The notes beneath the pieces are model-generated. The model ran no database searches. It saw only the letters and a list, made by a program, of their open reading frames with translations, and was not told where the DNA came from. From NCBI GenBank assembly GCA_902569975.1, contig CACFWD010000009.1, forward strand, positions 1 to 37,203: 37,203 bases of DNA, given 5' to 3'. Of the stretch, positions 7,251 through 7,824 are shown one piece after another (position 1 is the stretch's first letter; the number at the start of each line of letters is the position of its first letter). The position numbers and the translations under genes are program-made. Source of the DNA: an uncultured Pelagibacteraceae bacterium. Lineage in GTDB: Bacteria > Pseudomonadota > Alphaproteobacteria > Pelagibacterales > Pelagibacteraceae.

Positions 7251-7269
7251 GCGGAGATTATATCTCCGC
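7251..7269. terminator. Hairpin between lipoprotein and hsp20 genes
   Basis: A perfect 8-bp stem, GCGGAGAT (7251-7258) and ATCTCCGC (7262-7269), with a 3-nt loop. It is conspicuously GC-rich in an AT-rich region and lies in the 42-bp gap between two convergent genes, so it probably ends both transcripts. The U-tract on either side is poor, so termination strength is uncertain. Confidence 0.72.
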
Positions 7270-7285: not shown

Positions 7286-7732
7286 TTATTTTATCTCAAT
7301 AAGTTTTTTCTTTTTGTGCTCTGGCAGAATCCTTTCACAAGAAATTGTTAAAAGACCATCTTTTAGTTTAGCTTCACCTACTTTCACATCATCTGCAATT
7401 GTAAATGATCTAGAAAACTGTCTTTGAGAAATTCCTTTATGAATTATTTCTACATCAGAGTTATCATTTTCTGATTTATTTAACTGTTTGGTCTTCACAG
7501 TTAATAAATTATCTTCAAATTCGACTTCAACATCATCCTTTGAAAAACCTGCCAAAGCAACTTCAATCGCATAATTATCTTTACCAGTTTTTCTTATGTT
7601 GTACGGTGGATAATTAGATTGCATTGTCAAATGTCCATTATCCAACATATTTTCAAATTGGTCGAACATATCATCAAAACCAATTGAAAAAGGTCTTAGT
7701 GAGTTAAAGATAGATAAATCCTTACTTGTCAT
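7286..7732 (-). CDS. Small heat-shock protein (Hsp20/alpha-crystallin family)
   Basis: A 148-aa IbpA-type chaperone. A short N-terminal arm (FDDMFDQFENML) precedes the alpha-crystallin domain (about residues 43-133), which begins YPPYNIRKTGKDNYAIEVALAGF. The domain also contains ISQRQFSRSFTI and the family motif A-LKDGLLTI. The C-terminal tail carries ERILPEHKKKKLIEI. It holds unfolding proteins in a refoldable state as an oligomer in the cytoplasm. A strong GGAGGA Shine-Dalgarno lies 4 nt before the ATG. The upstream region has a heat-shock promoter-like element identical in spacing to that of groES, and a leader able to form a ROSE-like thermometer, so both transcriptional and translational heat control are likely. 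Confidence 0.92.
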   Translation of the reverse strand: MTSKDLSIFNSLRPFSIGFDDMFDQFENMLDNGHLTMQSNYPPYNIRKTGKDNYAIEVALAGFSKDDVEVEFEDNLLTVKTKQLNKSENDNSDVEIIHKGISQRQFSRSFTIADDVKVGEAKLKDGLLTISCERILPEHKKKKLIEIK

Positions 7733-7790
7733 TATATCCTCCTTTTTTTAAGCAAGTTTATTTATAGTAAGCCCCATTAGGCGACTTACA
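7733..7790 (-). promoter_or_regulatory. Candidate ROSE-like RNA thermometer in the hsp20 leader
   Basis: The leader has two possible hairpins. The 5' one (7789-7767) pairs GTAAG with CTTAC and extends with a G-U pair, a C-G pair and a mismatch around a CTAATG-type loop. The 3' one pairs TTGCT (7755-7751) with AGGA (7743-7740) across a 7-nt T/A loop, covering the Shine-Dalgarno. In known ROSE elements the conserved U-U/C-GCU sequence pairs with the Shine-Dalgarno in this way, leaving a bulged or non-canonical G. Sequence match and position fit; folding was not computed. Confidence 0.5.
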
Positions 7791-7795
7791 GACAT

Positions 7796-7824
7796 TATTT
7801 AGTAACTAAATAAAATTTTTCAAG
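7796..7824 (-). promoter_or_regulatory. Candidate sigma-32 (RpoH) promoter of hsp20
   Basis: Minus-strand CTTGAAA (7824-7818), a 15-nt spacer, then CTAAATA (7802-7796). The layout and spacing match the groES upstream element (CTTGAAA-N15-CTATATG) and the alphaproteobacterial heat-shock promoter pattern. Part of it overlaps a 15-nt inverted repeat, ATTTAGT-a-ACTAAAT (7797-7811). A start near 7790 would give a leader of about 57 nt. Confidence 0.62.

Follow-up and report, generated by a model that had tools for sequence, protein, structure and literature searches.

A putative ROSE-like RNA thermometer in the hsp20 leader of SAR11 bacteria, with related leaders in phages

SAR11 bacteria live at a nearly constant temperature and have few regulators. 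The question raised by the locus described here is whether the leader of a small heat-shock gene in such a bacterium is a ROSE element, a type of RNA that has reportedly been treated in a 2005 survey and in NMR work, and what such a leader would do there. The window, by which we mean the whole stretch of DNA analyzed (37,203 nucleotides of contig CACFWD010000009.1), is part of the Pelagibacteraceae (SAR11) genome G000, which comprises 863,193 bases and is 62% complete. The features on which the argument turns are the following, in the order in which the gene is read; R1 denotes a covariance model that we built from 97 family leaders, and SD the Shine-Dalgarno sequence.

7818-7824, minus strand: -35 element CTTGAAA of a sigma-32-type promoter (from sequence and family conservation)
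7796-7802, minus strand: -10 element CTAAATA, separated from the -35 element by a 15-nt spacer
7733-7790, minus strand: 5' leader of hsp20, about 57 nt (from matches to the R1 and ROSE_3 models)
7767-7789, minus strand: hairpin I, GUAAGUC-G-CC / UAAU / GGGGCUUAC, nine pairs with G7782 bulged (from folding and covariation)
7750-7756, minus strand: anti-SD strand CUUGCUU containing the ROSE motif UUGCU, with G7753 unpaired (from motif conservation)
7737-7743, minus strand: Shine-Dalgarno sequence AGGAGGA, partner of the anti-SD strand (from conservation and outer-pair covariation)
7286-7732, minus strand: hsp20 / ibpA coding sequence, 148 aa, with its ATG at 7732-7730 (open reading frame and PF00011, 64.4 bits)
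7721-7727, minus strand: AAGUAAG, the last base of codon 2 plus codons 3-4 of hsp20, a second and mutually exclusive complement of the anti-SD strand

The promoter that the initial annotation had read upstream of hsp20, CTTGAAA-N15-CTAAATA, is present exactly, on the minus strand at 7824-7796; the window has a single match to CTTGAAA-N15-CYAWATA, and 100 shuffled versions have none. Among 100 family leaders the exact CTTGAAA is found in 81 and the 15-nt spacer to the -10 element in 89, the commonest -10 element being CCATATA (36/100). The same genome carries the rpoH gene for sigma-32 (359.5 bits against a cut-off of 323.1); a sigma-32 promoter is usual for ROSE-like thermometers without defining them, and here the motif and the rpoH gene point to one. 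Transcription is predicted to begin 6-8 nt past the -10 element, where hairpin I has its base. In the definition given in PMC3669281, ROSE-like thermometers lie in the leaders of small heat-shock genes, which is the arrangement here, with the Hsp20 reading frame starting at 7732. At the other end of the gene, an inverted repeat, GCGGAGATATAATCTCCGC, lies at window 7251-7269 just past the hsp20 stop, between convergent genes and without a T run.

By protein search, 214 of 297 genomes of the family have hsp20, among them 118 of the 127 near-complete ones. From these 214 genomes we read 100 leaders (the 30 closest, 40 chosen by place, and 30 from a further search), which gave an alignment, A1, of 97 distinct leaders and a tree count on 57 sequences; in at least five rows of A1 (L013, L023, L055, L057, L074) the SD is out of register, and these positions are counted as unpaired or changed cells. 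The motif U(U/C)GCU is present in 100 of the 100 leaders, as UUGCU in 96 and UCGCU in 4, with AGGA 4-9 nt later in every one, so that both partners of the TTGCT/AGGA pairing proposed at the outset are kept in relatives. The U, G, C and U of the anti-SD strand are invariant within an otherwise variable leader. The G that had been described as unpaired in the second hairpin is likewise unchanged in 97/97 aligned leaders, and the fold of the window leader places it opposite a G of the SD, in a 1x1 loop.

Hairpin I bears the clearest marks of selection on structure. In the alignment 98.6% of its cells are paired and six of the nine pairs have changed on both sides; on the hsp20 tree (57 sequences) there are 13 independent double changes and 34 single changes that keep a pair, against 3 changes to or from the unpaired state, where slid controls give 0-3 double changes and 34-47 changes to or from unpaired. 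These counts were made by Fitch parsimony on the hsp20 tree, with ties broken by alphabet. The bulged G of the hairpin (window 7782, A1 column 13) is invariant in all 97 aligned leaders, and hairpin I is the stable 5' hairpin that ROSE-like thermometers possess. Around this bulged G the letters YGCC/GGGR, which in genus g9 are UCGCU/AGGG, are similar to the ROSE motif of hairpin II, and to judge by them hairpin I looks like a second copy of the motif placed away from the SD.

Hairpin II, the 3'-proximal hairpin, sets U(U/C)GCU opposite the SD with imperfect pairing, as in ROSE-like thermometers. Inside SAR11 this hairpin hardly varies, and its five core pairs show no compensatory double change, either in the alignment or on the 57-sequence tree, the sole compensatory change in the hairpin there being one cell of the inner U-A pair, and the RNAalifold consensus of SAR11 leaders omits the hairpin. 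Support comes from a wider set of 95 distinct segments (42 from SAR11, 20 from phages, 22 from viral contigs and 11 from other alphaproteobacteria), shuffled within these four groups. The set took 54 of 66 viral contigs, omitting eight with CUGUCU and four with too little upstream sequence; two of the 54 entered were too short, and two of 13 alphaproteobacterial loci (L174, L300) were without the core motif. The core motif served as the anchor, which guarantees the core pairs of hairpin II, and a test is therefore provided by the outer and inner pairs alone. The pair just outside the core is kept in 91/95 segments, as C-G, U-G, A-U or G-C, against a shuffled expectation of 85.7, and the next outer pair forms in 49/95 against 31.7; none of 1000 shuffles reaches either observed value. 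The innermost and the third outer pairs are not clearly above chance, being reached by 28 and 56 of 1000 shuffles. When the strands are instead registered with a G-G mismatch, the 95-segment set gives no excess over shuffles, so that a bulged G is favored in hairpin II. Compensatory change, named in the initial annotation as a check on the pairing, is thus strong in hairpin I and absent from the hairpin II core inside SAR11, and appears in the outer pairs of hairpin II in the wider set.

Taken as a whole, the two-hairpin structure pairs in 95.7% of cells (88.8% in shuffled alignments), contains 90 double-change cells (21 in shuffled), and has a covariation score of 0.315, compared with 0.176 for shuffled alignments, none of 500 reaching it, and at most 0.107 for slid versions. 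The number of pairs with double-sided change is a weaker measure (7 versus 5.2 shuffled, with 38 of 500 shuffles as high). Folded at 37 C, positions 7792-7721 give -14.0 kcal/mol, an energy equalled or bettered by 9 of 200 shuffles (z -1.89), and both of the hairpins that had been suggested for the leader of about 57 nt are in the minimum-free-energy structure; hairpin II is absent from the centroid of this fold. Over the 100 leaders, whole-leader stability has a mean z of -2.09, with 50 leaders below -2.

Closure of the SD behaves differently from the stability of the whole. At 20 C its mean z over the 100 leaders is +0.88, with fewer than 5% of shuffles as tight in 12 of them. For the window RNA ending at the AUG, the cost of opening the SD is 5.64 kcal/mol at 20 C (shuffled mean 4.08; 70/300 shuffles as good) and 3.29 kcal/mol at 37 C (shuffled mean 3.00; 122/300 as good), so that it falls from 5.6 through 3.3 to 1.65 kcal/mol at 50 C. 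When 12 nt of coding sequence are included, the window SD is closed less firmly, 288/300 shuffles being as tight or tighter at 20 C; the family mean z becomes -0.69, contrary in sign to what a masked SD would lead one to expect, and 10 of 100 leaders lie above their shuffled mean. The SD looks more open with the coding sequence because CUUGCUU is complementary also to AAGUAAG. The computed SD opening, the mean pair probabilities and the shares of the two helices all vary with the fragment ends chosen, and the last two measures were given no weight. Of the proposal that the leader folds better than shuffled leaders, then, the part concerning the whole leader stands as an average, and the part concerning SD closure by itself does not.

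A search with R1 places the leader throughout the family. The window site itself, at 7730-7794, scores 75.4 bits (E 6.7e-19), the window being one of R1's own sequences, and in a search of the order a strong match (E 3.3e-9 or better) was found in 134 of 144 Pelagibacteraceae genomes. None of the ten remaining genomes has a complete hsp20 match: seven were listed without one, two fall outside the protein-search matches, and one has only a fragment at a contig end. R1 matches at E 0.1 or better were obtained in 48 of 385 genomes of the class, of which 43 lie outside the family; 14 of these extra-family loci (E 5.8e-4 or better) were fetched, and 10 precede hsp20.

Among 4227 Rfam families, the best at the site is ROSE_3 (RF02523), which aligns over its full length at 7727-7790 with the same two hairpins and the same unpaired G in hairpin I, at 23.3 bits and E 0.0093. 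At the gathering threshold no Rfam family matches anywhere in the window, and the site differs from ROSE_3 members at cut-off by its score, the gathering score being 43 bits; the check by a ROSE covariance model is accordingly answered in favor of the family and against the cut-off. ROSE_3 reaches E 0.5 in only 4 of 20 SAR11 leaders scanned. A scan of the 297 family genomes with RF02523 under strict filters, which did not report the window's own site, gave none above the cut-off and weak matches (E 0.09-0.96) in 22; those compared with the places of hsp20 (G023, G167, G044) lie on other contigs.

Within the same order the leader is replaced by another design in a sister family, f2. No R1 match below E 0.01 was obtained under strict filters in the 53 genomes of this family in the order search. 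Its hsp20 gene is present in 13 of the 15 genomes searched, and the 13 leaders are of another design, UCGCUUAAGGAGG, with only 2 nt between UCGCU and AGGA. These f2 leaders (L279-L291) have several inverted repeats plus UCGCUUAAGGAGGAUU directly at the SD. With regard to dnaK, an inspection by eye of four SAR11 leaders (G000, G003, G017, G009) found no ROSE-type leader. In a further alphaproteobacterial family, f137, R1 matches lie directly before dnaK in L300 (28.4 bits) and L301 (24.9 bits, CUUGCUUAUUAUAAGGAG), the same loci as L171 and L175, and it is possible, judging from these matches, that f137 dnaK is under ROSE-like control.

The closest known systems are the short ROSE-like thermometers of Pseudomonas ibpA, which, as PMC3669281 describes them, have only two hairpins, a stable hairpin I, U(U/C)GCU against the SD, a sigma-32 promoter and a small heat-shock gene, all of which are seen in SAR11. 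In the same source (Krajewski 2013), hairpin II of ROSE hides the SD and melts while hairpin I is a stable platform, which in Pseudomonas shows no temperature response. Hairpin II of SAR11 is the weaker, with a median of -2.9 kcal/mol at 37 C (range -4.3 to 0.0 over 100 leaders) against -4.1 to -7.6 kcal/mol given for Pseudomonas in PMC3669281, where the stem limits may differ from those of our calculation; if the two calculations are comparable, the weaker hairpin would fit a lower set-point. The SAR11 leader differs from Pseudomonas ibpA also in being AU-rich and in having, in 80 of 100 cases, a second complement of the anti-SD strand in codons 2-4.

Other RNA thermometers, the fourU type and that of cyanobacterial hsp17, also place a hairpin over the SD of a heat-shock gene, and in fourU a UUUU stretch pairs with AGGA. 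The architecture of the SAR11 leader is of the ROSE type instead. A fourU thermometer was considered and rejected, as the strand in the window is CUUGCUU, with no UUUU opposite AGGA. The manA RNA is a structured RNA in potential 5' leaders of ibpA chaperones that some cyanophages carry, according to Weinberg 2010 (PMC2864571); the SAR11 hairpins differ from it in lying directly on the SD. The open-licence PMC literature contains, among the matches listed, no report of a ROSE-like hsp20 element in SAR11 or in phages, and we found in the literature no transcript or temperature experiment on the SAR11 hsp20 leader. The main text of Meyer 2009 on Ca. P. ubique RNAs (PMC2704228) contains none of the terms ROSE, thermometer, hsp20 and heat shock as whole words, and the iron-limitation paper PMC2864753 mentions RNA thermometers once, for cold-shock proteins.

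The leader is found with the gene in viruses as well. In IMG/VR, 66 contigs encode an Hsp20 relative, and R1 (E 0.1 or better) finds the leader at hsp20 in 60 of them (listed among L307-L372); three leaders are cut by the contig end, and three further rows of the R1 listing lie elsewhere. Two of these contigs (L324, L346) have genes for a T4-type gp45 clamp and gp44 clamp loader downstream, as identified by Pfam. Of 62 viral leaders with enough upstream sequence, eight have CUGUCU in place of U(U/C)GCU, six before AGGAGG (L320, L321, L322, L337, L367, L368) and two before UGGAGG (L331, L333); in these, as far as the letters indicate, the unpaired G seems to be shifted by one place with the pairs otherwise the same.

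Among sequenced phages, 507 of 50,697 INPHARED records match hsp20 by tblastn. We fetched 22 named loci (L373-L394), namely four of Pelagibacter phages (HTVC008M, Mosig, HTVC103P and HTVC115P), one of a Methylophilales phage, 16 of Prochlorococcus and Synechococcus phages, one of them from a lake, and one of a Sinorhizobium phage from soil; 14 Synechococcus phages and the Sinorhizobium phage were picked so as to spread down the ranking. R1 matches the hsp20 start in all 22 (14.0 to 42.5 bits, the weakest at E 0.039), and U(U/C)GCU with AGGA is likewise present in all 22, while the hairpin I pattern is counted in 21, the pattern match in L376 being hairpin II. In several of the cyanophage copies the loop of hairpin I is UUCG. 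With ROSE_3, three of the 22 reach E 0.5 (best 34.1 bits) and none reaches the cut-off, and manA RNA gives no match at E 0.5 in these 22 loci; as no SAR11 or phage leader scanned reaches the Rfam curated cut-off, annotation that relies on the cut-off misses them.

In the Hsp20 tree, the proteins of HTVC008M and Mosig fall among SAR11 proteins and those of HTVC103P and HTVC115P elsewhere, and the cyanophage proteins form a clade of their own (0.93); deep supports are modest. The hsp17 thermometer of the cyanobacterial hosts themselves is of a type other than ROSE. The phage copies, if functional, would be ROSE elements outside cellular genomes that move with their gene into hosts such as cyanobacteria.

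Our reading of these data is that the SAR11 hsp20 leader is very probably a short two-hairpin ROSE-like element with a sigma-32 promoter, in which hairpin II hides the SD until it is loosened. The ROSE-like element that the initial annotation had seen in the leader is upheld by a motif present in 100/100 leaders, by the covariation of hairpin I and by ROSE_3 being the best Rfam family, and ROSE-type translational control of SAR11 hsp20 is well supported as a prediction from comparative data. Temperature sensing by the leader is putative, by analogy with what is known of the ROSE family. On the model of that family, RpoH (sigma-32) would initiate hsp20 transcription at the foot of hairpin I, and hairpin I would fold and remain folded. 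CUUGCU would pair with AGGAG of the SD in a weak hairpin II holding one unpaired G, making initiation rare, and heat or another loosening of hairpin II, presumably by melting as in other ROSE elements, would expose the SD and allow Hsp20 to be made. A further and more weakly grounded step is that Hsp20 itself might bind the leader and repress whenever aggregates leave it free, in the manner of E. coli IbpA.

That last step leads to the alternative that we take most seriously. The leader could be a sensor of proteostasis and not a thermometer, kept mainly as an RNA site for self-repression by Hsp20, which aggregates would titrate away at any temperature. One indication comes from Ca. P. ubique HTCC1062, for which the leader L072 (genome G026), presumably its own, contains the ROSE-like element. 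At a constant 16 C, IbpA protein rose 3.74-fold in stationary phase under sulfur limitation, its mRNA showing no change at P <= 0.05; in control stationary phase the protein rose 7.63-fold and the mRNA 3.69-fold (PMC5069961). A rise of protein beyond that of mRNA at constant 16 C fits a role in proteostasis beside heat sensing or instead of it, and the leader may answer stress other than heat too; the same figures would arise if the protein decayed more slowly in stationary phase. The clear selection on hairpin I points the same way, given that its Pseudomonas counterpart does not respond to temperature (PMC3669281).

A second indication comes from the protein. In E. coli, in the account of PMC10474464, IbpA represses its own mRNA through R93, an arginine needed for RNA binding that is common in alpha- and gammaproteobacterial IbpAs, and the repression is lost in K98A; the ibpA leader there is, like that of SAR11, a thermometer-type leader on a small heat-shock gene. 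We mapped the R93 place by the R93/R97/K98 spacing in PMC10474464 and the E. coli sequence, and found Arg in 60 of 60 full-length SAR11 relatives, 58 of which fit G[IV]S.R.[FY].[RK].F, the other two reading GIAKRYFKKSF. The place of K98, by contrast, holds no basic residue and is S or T in the SAR11 motifs displayed, which speaks against repression of the E. coli kind, and our literature search found no binding data for any alphaproteobacterial Hsp20. We consider a proteostasis sensor in place of a thermometer a real possibility, a little short of evenly balanced, and aggregation sensing would, on this analysis, be a serious rival or partner to thermosensing.

Another alternative extends the element into the gene. 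The anti-SD strand could be a bistable switch with two targets, pairing now with the SD and now with codons 2-4, which would make the start of the coding region a part of the element. The CUUGCUU-AAGUAAG helix has 7 bp with one G.U, and at temperatures up to 35 C this alternative appears when the window leader is folded together with 12 nt of coding sequence, although how the prediction divides between the two helices varies with the fragment. In 80 of the 100 leaders the gene starts Met-Thr and codons 2-4 are ACA AGT AAG, with no synonymous change at any of them (80/80 Thr, 77/77 Ser, 78/78 Lys). Where the residue does change, in five sequences (AGT is GGT in three of them and AAG is AGG in two), pairing is preserved, a G taking the place of an A opposite U. 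The two later codons are otherwise scarce in this gene, AGT making up 6% of Ser and AAG 17% of Lys in codons 5-148 of 30 close hsp20 genes.

For comparison we used 270 control frames of a relative, taken from ATG to stop with at least 100 codons in 300 kb, 74 of them with an SD-like word. Their codons 2-5 have AAG for 19/193 Lys, AGT for 23/85 Ser and ACA for 33/61 Thr; AGT and ACA are thus enriched at other gene starts, so that the bias is in part a general habit of gene starts, and AAG is not. Runs of 6 or 7 pairs occur in 80/80 Met-Thr leaders, against at least 6 pairs in 13 and 7 in 3 of the 270 controls. Among the 48 synonymous ways of encoding Met-Thr-Ser-Lys, 5 or 6 would give stronger pairing in the 75 sequences of this type; for the window these are the ones with AGC or ACG. 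At the level of sequence comparison, these data demonstrate a nucleotide-level constraint on hsp20 codons 2-4. Whether this constraint reflects a switch is another matter: the 80 sequences are related and do not represent 80 events, five pairs are not exceeded in 18 of the remaining 20 leaders or in 14 of the 15 loci examined from other alphaproteobacteria, and some other need at the nucleotide level could have frozen the codons. We regard the two-target switch as conceivable and on balance doubtful.

The weakest alternative, a strong SD with a conserved upstream strand that stands there by chance or as plain SD context without regulatory meaning, draws on the failure of folding to separate SD closure in the window from shuffles, but is very improbable and is rejected in view of the invariance of U-G-C-U in an otherwise variable leader, the covariation of hairpin I and of the outer pairs of hairpin II, and the recurrence of the element before hsp20 in other families, viral contigs and phages.

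Returning to the ROSE-like element, its coding-region complement and its phage copies set it apart as a variant of the short ROSE type. The most speculative extension, which we think rather unlikely, is that the SAR11 leader is a portable proteostasis switch, whose anti-SD strand would toggle between the SD and codons 2-4 according to free Hsp20, and which phages of Pelagibacter, Methylophilales and cyanobacteria would have acquired together with hsp20 and would keep so that chaperone synthesis tracks aggregation during infection; if this were true, phage-borne ROSE elements could rank among the most frequent ROSE elements of the ocean. For SAR11 itself, the element appears to have been kept although its marine host sees little temperature change, and a ROSE-type leader in 134 of 144 genomes of an organism without heat shocks makes the role of an RNA thermometer there directly testable. 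The leader would bring a known type of control, ROSE, into an unexpected setting, a small heat-shock gene in bacteria that are among the most abundant in the ocean.
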